From positions 1-23,202 of IMG/VR virus record IMGVR_UViG_3300027976_000232: 23,202 bases of DNA. One strand, 5' to 3'. Positions within the stretch are counted from its first letter, which is position 1. Each line of letters starts with the position of its first letter. The notes under the pieces are model-generated. The model had not been told where the DNA came from. It did not search any database and was given only the letters and a program-made list of their open reading frames with translations. Source of the stretch: a virus. Made by a program: the position numbers and the translations under genes. Below, one piece after another: positions 1-22,384 of the stretch.

Positions 1-530
1 TCCAACTCCTTTAAAAAAGAAGGTATCTCTTTATGCATAGGAGTTAAATACTTAATGTCTTTAAAAGAAGGGTCTTCCGCAGTTCCATATTGAATAAACT
101 TATCGAGGGATCCATCACGATACCAAATCAAAGGGTTATTTTTTCCAAAAAAATGCATTCTATTAATATCTGTGTATGTGAAAGTACCCACCCATATTTT
201 TTTAATATTTAATGCTCTGCATACAACCCCTGCCATTAGGGCATTATATTGATCATCTGACTCTAAAGTTAATCCTTGAGGCAAATCAAAAAAAAGACCT
301 GCATTAACATATTCAAATTTATATCCTTTTTCTTTAAAATATTTAAGTATAGAAGTAACTGCTTTATTCTGTTCGGGTAGTTTCTTTTGACCAGATATAT
401 GATAACCCAATTGATTGTATAAAACATACACATTTCTTTTCTCTTTTAAAAAAGATTCTAACAAAATAGTACTATCTAATCCGCCTGAAAAAAGAATTAA
501 CTCTGGTTCTTGGTGATTGTTGGTACTCAT
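1..530 (-). CDS. QueC-like PP-loop ATP pyrophosphatase (3' end cut by window edge)
   Basis: I translated 176 residues from ATG at 530; an in-frame TAG lies directly before this ATG, so the start is well bounded. The protein runs off the left edge. Near the N-terminus it has LILFSGGLDSTILLE (about residues 11-25), the SGGxDS PP-loop that binds ATP in adenylating N-type pyrophosphatases. A later segment, DDQYNALMAGVVCRALNIKK, followed by a WVGTFTYTD strand, matches the layout of QueC (7-cyano-7-deazaguanine synthase), as does YLTPMHKEI near the cut end. QueC converts 7-carboxy-7-deazaguanine to preQ0 with ATP and ammonia; preQ0 feeds queuosine tRNA or deazaguanine-modified phage DNA. The C-terminal zinc cysteines of QueC, which would be decisive, lie outside the window. 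Another PP-loop amidotransferase-type enzyme is possible. The gene lies 63 bp downstream of an oxygenase-like gene on the same strand. Confidence 0.62.
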   Translation of the reverse strand, partial: MSTNNHQEPELILFSGGLDSTILLESFLKEKRNVYVLYNQLGYHISGQKKLPEQNKAVTSILKYFKEKGYKFEYVNAGLFFDLPQGLTLESDDQYNALMAGVVCRALNIKKIWVGTFTYTDINRMHFFGKNNPLIWYRDGSLDKFIQYGTAEDPSFKDIKYLTPMHKEIPSFLKEL

Positions 531-15685: not shown

Positions 15686-16420
15686 ACTTATAAATTTTCT
15701 TGGGCAACTGATTTAAACAAATATTTGTATCAGCCTTATTCCAGGTCTCAAATAAATGGAGAAAGAATGTACTCTGTTAATGAAGTACAGATTCCGTCCG
15801 TAACTACTATACTTTCAGCTACTAAAGATATGAAGGGGATACAAGCGTGGATTAATAGAGTAGGTAAAGAAGAAGCTGCTAAAATTGTTAAAAAGGCTTC
15901 CGATAGAGGCTCAGAAATGCATGCTTTGATAGAACAACGACTATTAGGCTCAGAAACATCACTTAGCTCTCCAGATAGCTCTGAGGCGGCTAGAATGGCA
16001 AAAACTGTCATCACTAACATGAGTGGCTTAAATACCGTTTACGGAAGTGAAATTTCTCTTAATTACAAAACGTTATGGGCAGGAACCACAGATTTAGTTT
16101 GTTTGTACGAAAACCAACTAACCATTGGCGATTTTAAACAAGCAAATAGAATGAAAGAAGAAAAATGGATTGATGATTATTTTTGTCAGTTAGTTGCCTA
16201 CTCTATGGCCCACACAGAAAATTATGGATTAATAGAACAGGGTAAAATATTTATGGTAACTCCAAAATTAGAATATAAAGAATTTGAATTAAATAAATTT
16301 AATTATGAAAAATATAAAAAACTATGGATGGGAAAAGTAGAACAATATTATAAAAACAGACCTGCCCTAGAGCCTGTGAAACCAGTGTTACAGGTTAATA
16401 AAAACAATCCTAACTCTTAA
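15677..16420 (+). CDS. PD-(D/E)XK exonuclease (RecB/Cas4-like)
   Basis: 247 aa. Nuclease signatures occur in order: DRGSEMHALIE (76-86, the helix with H82 typical of RecB-type nucleases), GSEISL (123-128, E125), AGTTDLV (135-141, metal-binding D139), TIGDFKQA (149-156, D152 and K154) and QLVAYSMAH (171-179, the QxxxY motif). These make a complete PD-(D/E)XK active site. In phages such enzymes resect or degrade DNA, and often partner an annealing protein. The 269-aa protein downstream of the divergent promoter is a possible partner. The start has no Shine-Dalgarno sequence and lies in a hairpin loop. Its stop shares the TTAA tetramer at 16417-16420 with the convergent SNF2 gene. Confidence 0.88.
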   Translation: MGDTYKFSWATDLNKYLYQPYSRSQINGERMYSVNEVQIPSVTTILSATKDMKGIQAWINRVGKEEAAKIVKKASDRGSEMHALIEQRLLGSETSLSSPDSSEAARMAKTVITNMSGLNTVYGSEISLNYKTLWAGTTDLVCLYENQLTIGDFKQANRMKEEKWIDDYFCQLVAYSMAHTENYGLIEQGKIFMVTPKLEYKEFELNKFNYEKYKKLWMGKVEQYYKNRPALEPVKPVLQVNKNNPNS

Positions 16421-17859
16421 AGCCATTCACGAGCTTTTTCCCCTAAAATTTTAGCAGAGAGTTTAATTTTATCCTTGAGTATACTTATTACTTTTTCATC
16501 AATAGTGTCCTTACATATTAAGTCTATATAAGTACATTTATTGGTTTGTGAAATTCTGTGAATACGTGCTTCTGATTGTTCTCTTTGCTCATATGAATAA
16601 TTATTATTAAAGTAAATCATAGTATGGGAAGAAGTTAAAGTTAATCCCATTCCACCACTTGCAGTGTTACCTACAAAAAATCTTGTTTTAGGGTTTTTTT
16701 GAAAAGACTCTCTAGCTTCTGTTCTAGACTCATTAGAGTCTCCACCATAAAAAGTTACAGTAGAGTCAGTACCATAAGTAGAACGAAGAGTGTCAGCAAT
16801 TTTACGAATATTATGTGTATAACAAGCCCAAATAATAACTTTTCCTTGTGTTTCATCGAGTGTCTCCAGTAGTAGTTTAATTTTTTCATTGTCATCAAAT
16901 TCTTCTATCTCACCACTATCCTTCATGACAAAACCATTCGCAACTTGATGTAGTCTTAAGATTTCTGTTAGTTTGTTTTGAAAACTTATACTGTCGTCTT
17001 CTAAAATAGCGAGCGCATGCATTTTTAAATCGTCATAAACTTTTTTTTGTTTTTTACCTAACTCACAGAATCTTTGTTGATAAATTTTTTCAGGTAAATC
17101 CAAACACTCCTCCTTGGTTACACGGAAGGAATGTGTTTTAACTTTTTCTTCTAGTTCTTTTAAGTTAGTAAAATATTTTGGAAATTTAACAATTTTTCCA
17201 TTAATAATACTTTCGTGAAATACACAATAACGATTACGAAAGGTGTAGTAAGAACTATGTCCTAAAATACTTTTATCTAAAAATTCTAATTGAGTGTACA
17301 CATCTAAAGGGCTGTTGGTTACGGGAGTACCTGTTAAAATTCTTCTGTATGGAGCCAAATCTTTTAACTTTAAAATGTTTTTGGTCCTATCTGCACCTGG
17401 ATTTTTAATCTTACTGGACTCATCAATAGCCATTAAGCACTTGAATTTATTAAGAAATTCTTTAGCTGTTGCAAAACCATTACCTCTAGATAACGCTTCC
17501 ACATTCATAACAAAGATTTTAAATTTACCATTACGAGTAAATAATCGTTCCTGGGCTAATCTATTTTTAATGGTGGTTGCATTAGACCAACTAATAATGT
17601 CACTTTCCTCTACAAAAGGGTAATGCGTGGGTATCTCATTTTTCACCCATACCGTGTATACCGATTTAGGAGCGATAATTAAAACACCCTCTATCTTGTG
17701 GTTATGATGTAGAATACCTACTGTATCTAGTAAAACTTTAGTTTTACCTGTACCCATTTCCATAAACAAACCATAATAAGGCTTATCAAAAGATTTTTGT
17801 AACGCTTCTTGTTGATGAGCGTAGGGCTGTGTTTTAAAAATATATTTTTTGTATCCCAT
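16417..17859 (-). CDS. SNF2-family (SF2) DNA helicase/translocase
   Basis: 480 aa from the start I prefer. Motif I is MEMGTGKTK, motif II AIDESSKI (a DESS form of DEAH), and motif III LTGTPVTNSP; the second RecA domain has VIIWACYTHN, FVGNTASGGMGLTL and the arginine-finger motif VI REQSEARIHRISQ. This is the compact two-domain SNF2/SWI2 layout seen in phage genomes, an ATP-driven translocase without extra domains. The ORF can be extended nine codons to ATG 17886, but that ATG lies inside the -10 of the divergent promoter (17884-17889), so a transcript from there begins after it; ATG 17859 is therefore chosen. It is the only minus-strand gene in the right half. It may unwind or remodel DNA for replication or recombination. 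Confidence 0.85.
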   Translation of the reverse strand: MGYKKYIFKTQPYAHQQEALQKSFDKPYYGLFMEMGTGKTKVLLDTVGILHHNHKIEGVLIIAPKSVYTVWVKNEIPTHYPFVEESDIISWSNATTIKNRLAQERLFTRNGKFKIFVMNVEALSRGNGFATAKEFLNKFKCLMAIDESSKIKNPGADRTKNILKLKDLAPYRRILTGTPVTNSPLDVYTQLEFLDKSILGHSSYYTFRNRYCVFHESIINGKIVKFPKYFTNLKELEEKVKTHSFRVTKEECLDLPEKIYQQRFCELGKKQKKVYDDLKMHALAILEDDSISFQNKLTEILRLHQVANGFVMKDSGEIEEFDDNEKIKLLLETLDETQGKVIIWACYTHNIRKIADTLRSTYGTDSTVTFYGGDSNESRTEARESFQKNPKTRFFVGNTASGGMGLTLTSSHTMIYFNNNYSYEQREQSEARIHRISQTNKCTYIDLICKDTIDEKVISILKDKIKLSAKILGEKAREWL

Positions 17860-17879
17860 GAAATAATAAAATATTAAGA

Positions 17880-17912
17880 TTGACATATATTACTTAGATC
17901 TATATATGTCAA
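17880..17912. promoter_or_regulatory. Symmetric bidirectional promoter / operator palindrome
   Basis: Arms TTGACATATAT (17880-17890) and ATATATGTCAA (17902-17912) are exact inverse complements around an 11-nt centre. On the plus strand TTGACA (17880-17885), 17 nt, TATATG (17903-17908). On the minus strand the same: TTGACA (17912-17907), 17 nt, TATATG (17889-17884). The -10 of each promoter overlaps the -35 of the other by two bases. It would fire leftward into the SNF2 helicase and rightward into the replication operon, and RNA polymerase could bind only one way at a time. The palindrome could equally be a dimeric repressor site. Confidence 0.7.
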
Positions 17913-17930
17913 CTTAATAAGGAGGCAAAC

Positions 17931-18473
17931 ATGTCTAACATCAATATAGATGGACGCGGTTTGGCCGAATTAAGTAAACTGTGTCAGAAGTTATTATCAA
18001 TCCGAGACGAGATTGGAAATCTTCAAAAGACACTAGATGATAGGATGAAAGATGAAGAACATATGTCTGGTCTTGTAATACCAAATATAATGACCGAGTT
18101 AGGCATCAGATCATTTACACTTGATGACGGTTCCACTGTCAAAGTCCAAAAAAAATATCGACCCCATATTTCAGATGACAATAGGTCAGCTGCGATGGAA
18201 TGGTTGAGAATAAATAATCATGAAGATCTAATTAGAAATGAAATTAGTATTCCATTCACCAAGGGTGAGGACGCTAAAGCAATAGCTTTAGAAAAACTAA
18301 TTCGTGGAAATGAAGAACTTCATGACATCGTGTTGAACAAAAAAGAAAATGTTCACTGGAAGACTCTTTCAGCGTTCTGTAAAGAACAAGTTGAAAAAGG
18401 AATAAACTTCCCTGAACATTTATTTGGATTGTTTATTCAGGATGAAACTCAAATAAAAGGAGAAAAAAAATGA
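17931..18473 (+). CDS. Conserved-type phage protein at head of replication operon, unknown function
   Basis: 180 aa. Residues about 12-48 form an amphipathic helix (LAELSKLCQKLLSIRDEIGN) likely to coil. Next come LVIPNIMTELGIRSFTLDDG and STVKVQKKYRPHI, a beta-rich 'IP..M.E.GI...TL.DG..V.V...Y' pattern, then an acidic helical part. The C-terminus has VHWKTLSAFCKEQVEKG and NFPEHLFGLFI. I recognise the pattern as recurring at this position beside ssDNA-binding and recombination genes in marine phages (from memory) but know no function. AAGGAGG at 17919-17925, five bases before ATG, is the strongest ribosome-binding site seen, and the gene is first after the symmetric promoter, so it should be an abundant early product. 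ATGA overlap with the next gene. Confidence 0.65.
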   Translation: MSNINIDGRGLAELSKLCQKLLSIRDEIGNLQKTLDDRMKDEEHMSGLVIPNIMTELGIRSFTLDDGSTVKVQKKYRPHISDDNRSAAMEWLRINNHEDLIRNEISIPFTKGEDAKAIALEKLIRGNEELHDIVLNKKENVHWKTLSAFCKEQVEKGINFPEHLFGLFIQDETQIKGEKK

Positions 18474-19279
18474 GTAAAACACCAACAGTAAAAACAACAA
18501 ACGAATTATCTTTATCGAGTGCCGATCTTGATAAACTAATGGTAAATTCGTTTGATAACATTGACAGCAATGCTGTCTCGATGCCATATTTTAAATTGGT
18601 GTCTAAACAATCCGACATACTTGAACCAGGAAGTGCTAACTACGTAGAAAAAGCAAAACCTGGAATGCTTTTCAATACCGCTATAAGAGAGGTGTATGAA
18701 AACATTAAAGTAATCCCAAGTTTCTTTTACTTGGCAGATGTAGAGTGGTCTGAAAGAGGAGAAGGTTCTAATAGACCTGTTTCTATCCATGACATATCCG
18801 CAAACGTTCTTAAGAATACACAGAAGGACGATAAAGGAAAAGACCGTTTGGAAAATGGTAATTACATTGAAAGAACTGCACATCATTTCGTAGTTCGTTT
18901 AGATGATAATAATAATGTTTTGGACAGTGGACTTATTCTAATGTCTAGAACCCAAATGAAGAAGTCGCAACGATGGAACACCATGCAATTATCTCAATTT
19001 CAAGATATAGAGGGTGTCCGTAAGCAACTTCCGAATCATGCACAAATTTATACCCTTGGCTCGACTTTAGAAAAAAACTCTAAAGGTACTTGGTACGGCT
19101 GGGTTATAAACTTCACTGGAGTTGCTCCTATGACTGCAATTAACAGATCTGTAGAGTTTAGATTATCTGTTTCGCAGAACAAAGGTGTGAACTACGCTGA
19201 TGAGAAAACGGTTGATAAAAAGGAAATCCCTAGTGTAACAACTAAGGGTTTGCAAGGTACTGAAGCTACTCCTTTTTAA
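18470..19279 (+). CDS. Candidate phage ssDNA-binding protein
   Basis: 269 aa. The N-terminus is flexible, followed by a beta-rich core starting VSMPYFKLVSKQSDILEPG, with KPGMLFNTAIREVYENIKVI and a W-containing GTWYGWVINFTGVAPM late region. The 'P.fkl.q..S.....G...fv..akpGm.fn........' pattern recurs in phage replication modules, often annotated as ssDNA-binding or recombination mediator-like (from memory). The last residues, GLQGTEATPF, end in -PF as bacterial SSB tails do, but are weakly acidic. AGGAG at 18458-18462 lies seven bases before the ATG. Its place between the 180-aa gene and the primase supports DNA handling; ssDNA binding itself is inferred. Confidence 0.55.
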   Translation: MSKTPTVKTTNELSLSSADLDKLMVNSFDNIDSNAVSMPYFKLVSKQSDILEPGSANYVEKAKPGMLFNTAIREVYENIKVIPSFFYLADVEWSERGEGSNRPVSIHDISANVLKNTQKDDKGKDRLENGNYIERTAHHFVVRLDDNNNVLDSGLILMSRTQMKKSQRWNTMQLSQFQDIEGVRKQLPNHAQIYTLGSTLEKNSKGTWYGWVINFTGVAPMTAINRSVEFRLSVSQNKGVNYADEKTVDKKEIPSVTTKGLQGTEATPF

Positions 19280-20820
19280 TGACTGCTACTCGATTCTTAG
19301 ATCTGTTTGATTGCCAACGAGAGAACTATTACACCTTTGAACTTCAAGGACAGAGGGACCGTGATGGTAAAGCCGAAGGTAAATACACTCGGATCCGAGA
19401 ATCAGTGACTGATGAGGTCATTGAAAAACATTTCAGTGGAGAAATCAGCATTGGTCTTATTCCTACTCGTAGGGATAAGACCTGTTCCTGGGGTTGCATT
19501 GATGTAGATAATATTATTTATAACAAAGACCCCAGGCCCCTCATTAAAAAAGTAAGAGATAATAAATATCCCTTAATGCCTTACCGATCTAAAACAGGAG
19601 GCTTACATTTAGTGTTACATATTAAAGGTTCTGTTCTTGCAGCAGACATGCGAGCAAAAATTCATGAACTTGCAGCAGATTTAGGATGCGGAGGAGAAGG
19701 AGCAGATAAGTTTCCAGCCGAAGATGAAATTAAATGGGATCCACAAAAAAATGAATACAGGACAGGTAAGTGTTTAAATATTCCCTATCAAAACTGTGCT
19801 AATAAATTTTTCACTCGCTACGGAGTGAATGATAATAATGAATCATTGTCATTAGAAGAATTATTTGAGTTCGTAGAGCCCTTACGAATAACTCCAGAGC
19901 AATTTAATAAAATAACTGTGGCGAAGCCACGTAATGAAGATAATGATATGTGGAATCAATATCCGCCTTGCGTGCAAAGTTTTATTAAAGAAGGCGTTGG
20001 AGAAGGTCAAAGAAACAATGCAATGTTTAATATTGCGGTGATGGAGCATTTAAAAAATCCTAAAACTTTAAGACAAGAAGTATATTCGAAGAATAAAGAA
20101 ATATGTAAACCACCTATTGATAGAGATTCGGAGTTAGAGGAGATTATTAATGGGATTAAAGACCAAAATTATTTCTATCAGTGCGAAACCCCGATTGCTA
20201 AAAAGTATTGTAATAAAGAATTATGTAGACAAAGAAAATTTGGTATTGGGCCTGAACAATATCAACCAAGTGTAGAGAGTTTTGAAAAGTTGGACACAGA
20301 TCCTCCTATTTATTATTTAACTATGGAAGGAAAGCAAATCACTTTAACAGGAGTAGACATTACCCAACAACAATTATTTGCTAGGTCCTTATTTGACCAA
20401 GCGGATACCGTTTGGGATACGTTAAAGCCTAAAGATTTTAAACTATTTTTACGTAAATTAAAAGACGTGCAAATCGTTATTGAAGATGCAACCGATTCTA
20501 AGGTAGCTGAATATGAGTACTATATTAGAAAATTTATTCAAGATGAAGAACCTGGGGATGATATATCTCAGATTGAAGCAGGATATATATTTATAGAAGA
20601 AGACAGTGTGTACTTTAAGTTAGAAACCTTCATGGAATTTATGGTTAAAAATAGACAAAATAAAAAAAGAAATGAATTAATTCATTATTTAAGAAATGGC
20701 GGGGCAAAAAATGTGATTAAGAATAAATCCCGTATGTGGAAAGTAAACAAACCAACTAAGATCGAAATTAAAAATCGCTCTGTGACCTTTAAGAAAAACG
20801 ATGAGTCCATTCCGTTTTAA
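19279..20820 (+). CDS. Archaeo-eukaryotic-type primase (AEP, TOTE/PriCT-like) with four-cysteine cluster
   Basis: 513 aa. The catalytic AEP core reads CSWGCIDVDNI (69-79, acidic metal pair D75/D77), then YRSKTGGLHLVLHI (102-115, the sGGxH motif with H110) and CLNIPY (165-170, the strand with the third active-site region). This matches TOTE conflict-system and phage/mobile-element AEP primases. Residues 230-330 resemble a PriCT/PriL-like domain: PPC (C232), GEGQRNNAMFNIAV (243-256) and CETPIAKKYCNKELCRQR (303-320) with C303, C312, C317. Four cysteines could bind zinc or a 4Fe-4S cluster. The protein ends NDESIPF, like the tip of bacterial SSB. TAATG joins it to the preceding gene and its 3' end overlaps the helicase start by 20 nt. 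It should make primers for phage DNA replication. Confidence 0.85.
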   Translation: MTATRFLDLFDCQRENYYTFELQGQRDRDGKAEGKYTRIRESVTDEVIEKHFSGEISIGLIPTRRDKTCSWGCIDVDNIIYNKDPRPLIKKVRDNKYPLMPYRSKTGGLHLVLHIKGSVLAADMRAKIHELAADLGCGGEGADKFPAEDEIKWDPQKNEYRTGKCLNIPYQNCANKFFTRYGVNDNNESLSLEELFEFVEPLRITPEQFNKITVAKPRNEDNDMWNQYPPCVQSFIKEGVGEGQRNNAMFNIAVMEHLKNPKTLRQEVYSKNKEICKPPIDRDSELEEIINGIKDQNYFYQCETPIAKKYCNKELCRQRKFGIGPEQYQPSVESFEKLDTDPPIYYLTMEGKQITLTGVDITQQQLFARSLFDQADTVWDTLKPKDFKLFLRKLKDVQIVIEDATDSKVAEYEYYIRKFIQDEEPGDDISQIEAGYIFIEEDSVYFKLETFMEFMVKNRQNKKRNELIHYLRNGGAKNVIKNKSRMWKVNKPTKIEIKNRSVTFKKNDESIPF

Positions 20821-22384
20821 AACAATAAAACTATTCGGGCCTCCAGGGACAGGTAAAACAACTACCTTATTAAATAGAATAGAAAAATATATAGGACGAG
20901 GAGTTTCTCCCCATAAAATTGCTTATTTTTCTTTTACTAAAAAAGCAATCAATGAAGGTATAGAACGAGCTAGAAGTAAGTTCCCTAATTTACAAGATCA
21001 AGATTTACATAACTTTAGAACCATTCATAGTTTTTGCAGGCAGCAGTTTTCCACCATTCCAGTACTAGATGAAGACGTAGATATAAAAGAATTTAATACC
21101 TCTATGGGAATCATATCTTTAGACTTTGATGATACTTACGATGGACACAGGGTTAGGAAAAATTGGGCCTTGCGTATTTATGATAAAGCTAGAAACATGA
21201 TGGAGGATCCTATTAGTGTTTACCGTAGGGAGAAAGTTAAAAGGATAGGGTACGATAAGTTTGTTAACATTATACGTTTGTATGAAGAGTTTAAGGCAAG
21301 ACACCGAGTAGATTTCACAGATATGTTAAAACAATTTATTGAAGAAGGCGTAGCCCCGTCTTTTGATTTAATGATTATAGACGAAGCCCAGGACTTAACT
21401 CCGCTACAATGGAAATTTGTCTACAAGTTGGGAGAGAAGGCAAAAAGAATCTACTTAGCAGGAGACGATGACCAGGCCATCTATGAATGGAATGGTGCGG
21501 ACGTTAAATCATTTCAAAACTTTCCAGGGAAAGACGTGGTTTTAAAATACTCCCACAGGTTAAATAAAGATATTTTTACTTTTTGCAAATTGTTACAAAA
21601 CAAGATTAGAAATAAAAAAGAAAAAGAATTTGTACCTTTTAATAAAAATAAGGGGAACATTTTAATGTTTAAAAATTTTTCAGAATTACCCTTTAGTTTA
21701 TTTACAGGGAAATGGTTTTTACTCGCCAGGGTAAGGGATGCAGTTAAAGTTTTAGAAGGAGAAGCCAGAAAACAGGGTTTGTATTTCCAAAATCAAAAAG
21801 GGAAAAAATCTTTTGATATTAATCAATGGAACGCTGTTCGTTACTGGGAAGATTTAATGGGGGGAGGAACTCTTACTAAAGATAAAGTGGAAATTATGTA
21901 TAATTTTATTGAAGAAATTACGCACGGCTATAGAAAAATAGAATCTAAAGCGTGGTTAGATATAGATCCAGCTTATGAGATGACTTTTGAAACATTACAG
22001 GTAGTGGGAGGTCTATCCACGAAGAAGAAAAAAGAACCTTGGTGGGATGCGTTAAACCGTAAGTTTAATGATAGACAGAAAAGGTATTTTCTACAAGTTC
22101 AAAAGATGGGTATTGATTTGACTACTAAAGCAAACATCATTATAGATACTATTCATCAAGTTAAAGGAGGGGAAGCTGAAAACGTGGTTTTATTTGCACA
22201 AACTAACTATCCAACTAATTTTGACGAAAAAATAACCGATGATAAATCCAATGAGCTTAGAGTGTGGTATACAGGAGCTTCTCGGTCTAAGAAGAATTTA
22301 TTTTTGTTAGGAACCACCCATAGATATTCTTTTCCATTAGCTAGAATTTATAACAGTTACCTGGAGGCTGCAGATGCCCTGTAA
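20801..22384 (+). CDS. UvrD/Rep-like SF1 DNA helicase
   Basis: 527 aa. Motifs in order: GPPGTGKT (13-20, Walker A), YFSFTKKA (42-49, motif Ia), IDEAQD (193-198, motif II), GDDDQAIYEWNGAD (221-234, motif III), YSHR (motif IV), TIHQVKGGEAENVVLF (motif V) and VWYTGASRSKKNLFL (motif VI with the arginine finger). Size fits a minimal SF1A helicase. Only nine residues precede the first beta strand, so the start at 20801 is required although it overlaps the primase gene by 20 nt. It probably works with the primase in replication restart or fork unwinding. The last 11 nt overlap the HNH gene. Confidence 0.9.
   Translation: MSPFRFKTIKLFGPPGTGKTTTLLNRIEKYIGRGVSPHKIAYFSFTKKAINEGIERARSKFPNLQDQDLHNFRTIHSFCRQQFSTIPVLDEDVDIKEFNTSMGIISLDFDDTYDGHRVRKNWALRIYDKARNMMEDPISVYRREKVKRIGYDKFVNIIRLYEEFKARHRVDFTDMLKQFIEEGVAPSFDLMIIDEAQDLTPLQWKFVYKLGEKAKRIYLAGDDDQAIYEWNGADVKSFQNFPGKDVVLKYSHRLNKDIFTFCKLLQNKIRNKKEKEFVPFNKNKGNILMFKNFSELPFSLFTGKWFLLARVRDAVKVLEGEARKQGLYFQNQKGKKSFDINQWNAVRYWEDLMGGGTLTKDKVEIMYNFIEEITHGYRKIESKAWLDIDPAYEMTFETLQVVGGLSTKKKKEPWWDALNRKFNDRQKRYFLQVQKMGIDLTTKANIIIDTIHQVKGGEAENVVLFAQTNYPTNFDEKITDDKSNELRVWYTGASRSKKNLFLLGTTHRYSFPLARIYNSYLEAADAL

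Follow-up and report, generated by a model that had tools for sequence, protein, structure and literature searches.

The 33 bp at positions 17880-17912 of the window, the whole viral stretch of 23,202 nucleotides analysed here, probably constitute two complete host-type promoters on opposite strands, one reading leftward into a SNF2-family helicase gene and the other rightward into a replication operon. A two-way promoter at this site is very likely real, because many related phages retain the design at varying spacings. Bidirectional promoters are already known; the compact mirrored geometry predicted here appears new in the literature searched, in which we found no description of a mirrored interlocked element.

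The mirrored element and its flanking genes

Read directly, the element is TTGACATATAT-N11-ATATATGTCAA, with a left arm at 17880-17890 (TTGACATATAT), a centre of TACTTAGATCT and a right arm at 17902-17912 (ATATATGTCAA). Each 11-bp arm is the exact inverse complement of the other. The features of the region are the following.

16417-17859, minus strand: SNF2-family helicase, the leftward gene (PF00176, E 1.9e-24; phrog_62), with its ATG at 17859 placed from homologue starts
17872-17878, no strand: left outer dyad extension TATTAAG, with a bulged A at 17879
17880-17912, no strand: 33-bp mirrored element, an 11-bp perfect inverted repeat with an 11-nt centre (sequence, shuffles)
17880-17908, plus strand: predicted rightward promoter, -35 TTGACA at 17880-17885, spacer 17, -10 TATATG at 17903-17908, expected start at about 17915
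17884-17912, minus strand: predicted leftward promoter, -35 TTGACA at 17912-17907, spacer 17, -10 TATATG at 17889-17884, expected start at about 17877
17913-17919, no strand: right outer dyad extension CTTAATA, which pairs with TATTAAG
17919-17925, plus strand: Shine-Dalgarno-like AAGGAGG of the rightward operon, ahead of the gp33-like gene (sequence)
17931-18473, plus strand: Pam3 gp33-like gene (PF23984), the first rightward gene (domain match, alignment)
18470-19279, plus strand: Pam3 gp34-like gene (PF23977; domain match)
19279-20820, plus strand: primase with an AEP-TOTE domain (phrog_21866), the third rightward gene (domain/phrog match)
20801-22384, plus strand: UvrD-like helicase (PF00580, E 4.7e-33)

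On both strands the -35 hexamer TTGACA agrees with the sigma-70 consensus at all six positions and the 17-nt spacer lies inside the sigma-70 range of 16-18 nt, while the -10 hexamer TATATG agrees with TATAAT at four of six positions, being without the T at position 6. A standard consensus scan misses the element because this final T is lacking. TATATG and TATATA, unusual as -10 sequences, are the commonest -10 hexamers in the phage family. The sequence-only reading had described the same TTGACA-17-TATATG arrangement on both strands as a product of exact 11-bp arms, which was borne out by the direct read and by comparison of the arms; the interlock that it had proposed, each -10 box lying over the other promoter's -35 box, also holds, with two bases shared at each overlap. 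For both -10 boxes to fit between the -35 boxes with no clash of bases, a span of about 33 bp is the minimum (6+16+6+5).

In the proposed mechanism, host RNA polymerase would bind the 33-bp element in either of two orientations, one at a time, and would begin transcription a little way beyond the arms, at about 17915 and 17877; through the symmetry, two near-equal promoters would fit into minimal space. Since the two promoters overlap, we infer that two polymerases exclude each other at the element. HTVC027P, a phage with the same gene order around this gap (see below), has no RNA polymerase of its own and is said to depend on that of its host (PMC12753301), and RNA-seq of HTVC027P has been published.

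When the 71-bp gap between the divergent genes was dinucleotide-shuffled, 0.21% of the shuffles contained a perfect inverted repeat of 11 bp with a loop of up to 30 nt, and none of 20,000 contained TTGACA-N19-26-TGTCAA. An 11-bp inverted repeat anywhere in the whole window, found in 27% of shuffles, is not rare, so that the case rests on the identity of the element and its place. Besides the element at 17880-17912, the 23 kb of the window contain no other TTGACA-N16/17-TATA. If a one-base bulge (A17879) is allowed, the dyad extends a further 7 bp on each side of the arms. A second perfect inverted repeat of the window, ATTTATGCCCTTAGAGGGCATAAAT at 2017-2041, lies within a minus-strand gene predicted to be 2OG-Fe(II) oxygenase-like. 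Elsewhere in the window, a PP-loop protein (3-530, minus strand) with weak QueC similarity below the Pfam cut-off adjoins weak 2OG-oxygenase-like genes, and these neighbours may possibly take part in base modification.

An open reading frame start at 17886 was ruled out as the start of the helicase: the homologues begin at ATG 17859, and 17886 was rejected as a gene start because it lies inside the left arm and upstream of the predicted transcript start. The predicted helicase leader is 18 nt long and carries no Shine-Dalgarno sequence. This absence had been read from the sequence as a sign of unequal output in the two directions; the absence itself is real, but it is a family-wide trait, shared by the helicase leaders of 38 of 40 relatives, and is no indication of unequal output. 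On the other side, the rightward gene had been called a primase. A primase does belong to the rightward operon, where it is the third gene, the first being the Pam3 gp33-like gene. In 18 of the 40 relatives (L171, L053, L028, L151 and others) the predicted rightward transcript starts no more than 3 nt from the start codon, which suggests leaderless messages in these phages and lends the predicted start position indirect support.

The divergent order helicase / gp33-like / gp34-like / primase / UvrD matches that of HTVC023P-like pelagiphages (PMC9599517, PMC12753301) and is shared by HTVC023P, HTVC027P and 023Pt_psg01, all of them SAR11 phages or environmental relatives of such phages. By its gene order, the window comes from a SAR11-type (HTVC023P-like) phage, of whose genome it is one fragment. 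The main texts of PMC9599517 and PMC12753301 contain no mention of promoters, and we found no mapped promoters of SAR11 phages in the literature searched. In a distant relative, phage DSL-LC04 (L013), a small gene annotated as an RNA polymerase sigma-G factor (397-654) is found in the corresponding primase/UvrD operon.

Arm conservation and box spacing in related phages

Related loci were collected by helicase and gp33-like protein searches; a scan with the gp33-like protein alone returned no relatives, and for this protein alignments were used. The exact pair TTGAC..GTCAA with an outer span of 33-41 bp (modes 33 and 37) was detected in 37 of 76 non-redundant gaps upstream of the same helicase, which were thinned by similarity yet are still related by descent, against an average of 0.145, and never more than 2, in 200 shuffle sets of 76 gaps. 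Paired conservation of the arms relative to the centre, proposed beforehand as a sign in favour of the promoter pair, is therefore clearly evident in roughly half of the related gaps, with no paired change in the centre.

The mirror is common, not universal. Unlike the window phage, the cultured phages HTVC023P and HTVC027P have no TTGACA mirror, many relatives miss one or both TTGACA arms, and 39 of the 76 gaps lack the exact double arm. The sequence-only reading had held that homologous gaps losing an arm with gene order unchanged would speak against it, and this is partly what is seen, as gene order is often retained in these 39 gaps. The loci L005 and L006 retain an interlocked TTGNNN-17-TATAAT on both strands.

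Across the relatives, arm spans of 13, 14, 33, 34, 36, 37, 38 and 41 bp occur, and spans of 15-30 bp are missing from the exact-arm set. The compact 13-14 bp form, for example TTGACTTAAGTCAA, is found in the nearest kin of the window (L002-L004, about 69% helicase identity) and in L021 and L047; in this topology the two -35 boxes are superposed and the -10 boxes lie outside. Since the -10 boxes of this class stand outside the palindrome, palindromy alone cannot create them.

Among 40 non-redundant elements, a TA-box is situated 16-17 nt from its own -35 box on 75 of 80 strands, compared with 17.5 strands on average, and at most 29, in shuffles, and this distance holds in the span classes 13-14, 33, 34, 36 and 37. 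A dimer operator requires a constant span, whereas promoters require a constant distance from each -35 box to its own -10 box. Because the arm span varies while each TA-box keeps its distance to its own -35 box, the arrangement is, as far as sequence comparison can tell, promoter logic and not a fixed dimer-operator geometry. The proposal of bidirectional interlocked promoters thus gains support from -10 boxes tied to their own -35 boxes at every arm spacing and from the conservation of the arms in relatives.

The helicase tree pairs the window (33 bp) with L002 (14 bp) as sisters at full support and places the window far from the main 33-34 bp group, and the span class shifts at least eight times over the element-bearing rows. 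These shifts and this sister placement suggest repeated rebuilding of the geometry, with the reservation that recombination of the gap may be independent of the helicase.

No paired variation of inner dyad positions was detected in the 33-bp form (p = 0.90), for which only nine non-redundant cores, oriented and thinned, were available. A full-dyad, operator-like centre had been suspected from unoriented cores, and this signal disappeared after orientation and thinning of the cores. In most relatives an outward AGAAAG flanks the arms in mirrored form on both sides, even where it falls within the first codons of the rightward gene. GAAAG is found on the left in 30 of 39 elements, on the right in 26 and on both sides in 25, with about three expected per side. 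Where the relatives have AGAAAG, the window carries CTTAATA outside both arms. The simplest guess is that the outer repeat is an initially transcribed sequence or a weak ribosome-binding sequence.

Alternative readings and known divergent promoters

It is unlikely that the palindrome is chiefly an operator, at which a dimeric phage or host regulator would recognize TTGAC half-sites and repress or activate both divergent genes. The perfect dyad symmetry, the symmetric outer flanks and the compact TTGAC-N3/4-GTCAA of the nearest kin, which resembles a dimer site, would all suit such a regulator. However, a dimer site would not tolerate the range of arm spans given above, the TA-box tracks its own -35 box and not the neighbouring arm, the inner dyad positions of those nine sequences do not vary in pairs, and no regulator gene was identified adjoining the element. 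The earlier suggestion of a repressor palindrome covering both promoters is accordingly weakened, since arm spacings range between 13 and 41 bp and no covariation is seen in the dyad centre. An FNR/CRP-like operator, which the compact TTGAC-N4-GTCAA presumably resembles, was also considered and is disfavoured, as spans of 13, 14 and 33-41 bp all exist. In E. coli bioA/bioBFCD and argE/argCBH and in Tn10 tetR/tetA, overlapping divergent promoters are controlled by a dedicated repressor at a fixed operator that lies between them. The phage element is like these systems in that overlapping promoters in one short region serve divergent genes, and unlike them in that its arm spacing varies and a repressor is not evident.

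That the promoter pair needs a phage-encoded factor, with TTGAC as the box of that factor, as in phage middle promoters, and the TA-box as the sole sigma contact, is quite improbable, although several observations would fit. In the four SAR11 single-cell assemblies searched, TTGACA-N-TATATG pairs are confined to phage contigs, and TTGACA-16/17-TATANT is not enriched in these genomes (6 matches against 16 for the control), so that TTGACA could be the box of a factor other than sigma-70. The conserved AGAAAG just outside each arm and the non-consensus sixth position of the -10 box point the same way. On the other hand, TTGACA at 16-17 nt from the TA-box is the ordinary sigma-70 layout, and we know of no -35-box factor of this kind in the HTVC023P-like group. 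Perfect arms around an unrelated centre are also the expected residue of quasi-palindrome correction, and the window retains its outer symmetry with a sequence (CTTAATA) different from that of its relatives; the symmetry could then be partly a mutational by-product, hairpin template switching in replication having equalized the arms while selection acted on one promoter only. We regard this as very improbable, given that both flanking genes need a promoter and that many relatives keep both promoters without perfect palindromy (the 36-38 bp class, and L005 and L006). The strong single-strand fold of the element (-16.2 kcal/mol, z -5.4) would be compatible with an RNA hairpin or terminator in place of a promoter, a reading to which we give hardly any credence: there is no G+C stem and no U tract, no terminator was called at the element, and no expected transcript contains the palindrome because the genes point away from it.

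The preferred reading, two interlocked promoters, can be compared with the bidirectional promoters of E. coli, in which transcript starts flank or fall within a shared -10 element and are usually 18 bp apart, with 10 and 23 bp also common (Warman and colleagues; PMC12825309, PMC10268837). As in those promoters, and in their counterparts of Salmonella plasmids and of other prokaryotes, symmetry is predicted here to permit two polymerase orientations, outward firing and mutually exclusive binding (PMC12825309, PMC10268837). In contrast to them, where the symmetry resides in the shared -10 element, the phage element has two separate -10 boxes about 13 bp apart, each with a full -35 box, and predicted starts about 38 bp apart, and it falls outside the E. 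coli definition of a shared -10 with commonly 18 bp between starts. In its predicted action the element would work like a bidirectional promoter, with a different geometry, in which a single stretch of DNA holds two full, interlocked promoters. The sequence-only reading had the element act as a choice switch between helicase and primase expression. Such regulation by competition between the two promoters is no more than a possibility; in published tests of E. coli bidirectional promoters, basal firing proved too weak for the two directions to compete, and competition emerged only under strong activation of one of them (PMC12825309). The 36-bp core of a geminivirus bidirectional promoter, which was assayed in E. 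coli as a foreign host and for which a directional bias was measured, likewise has compact overlapping -10 and -35 elements on both strands. The core differs from the phage element in that its -10 boxes overlap, and it is apparently not mirror-perfect (PMC12907893).

Distribution and a second gene pair

The pattern TTGACATATA-N13-17-TATATGTCAA was retrieved from at least 119 viral stretches, against four for the reversed control. All 119 stretches listed were exactly 33 bp long, though 33-37 bp were permitted, and nearly all adjoin the helicase; by mechanical ORF calls, 89 lie in divergent gaps, 4 at contig edges and 26 within over-extended ORFs. Among the matches listed for TTGACAT-N19-23-ATGTCAA, 26 of 120 are placed in divergent gaps, compared with 0 of 120 for the reversed control. 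In these latter scans it is the position of matches, not their number, that was compared with the control, the control count being supplied by the longer pattern.

A search of 257 billion bases from bacterial and archaeal genomes gave 21 matches to the 33-37 bp pattern. Among them are four phage contigs in Pelagibacterales single-cell assemblies, in which the pattern is always 33 bp long and adjoins the helicase; HTVC023P-type isolates infect HTCC1062. SAR11 bacteria are among the most abundant in the sea, and a conserved compact two-way promoter offers a concrete, testable entry to the transcription programme of HTVC023P-type phages. With spans from 13 to 41 bp, the relatives also supply a natural set of interlocked promoters in which the conditions for competition between divergent promoters can be studied, and the same set bears on how short a two-way promoter can be.

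A second site, the gap that separates the terminase small subunit gene from a small, divergently oriented gene, additionally holds a mirrored element of 33-34 bp in six loci (L414 of G006, L182, L246, L250, L283 and L284), and here the start codons lie only a few bases beyond the arms. One example has TTGACA-17-TAAAAT in one direction and TTGACA-17-TATAAT in the opposite one. It is conceivable, albeit doubtful, that the mirror module of SAR11 phages acts as a coupler, in which interlocked promoters within one polymerase-sized footprint would fire the helicase and the replication operon, or elsewhere the terminase small subunit and its neighbour, in strict alternation and at a fixed ratio, often as leaderless messages, with the geometry repeatedly rebuilt at a few allowed spacings. 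One genome of 57.6 kb carries the element twice, in the helicase gap (L141, span 34) and in the terminase gap (L414).
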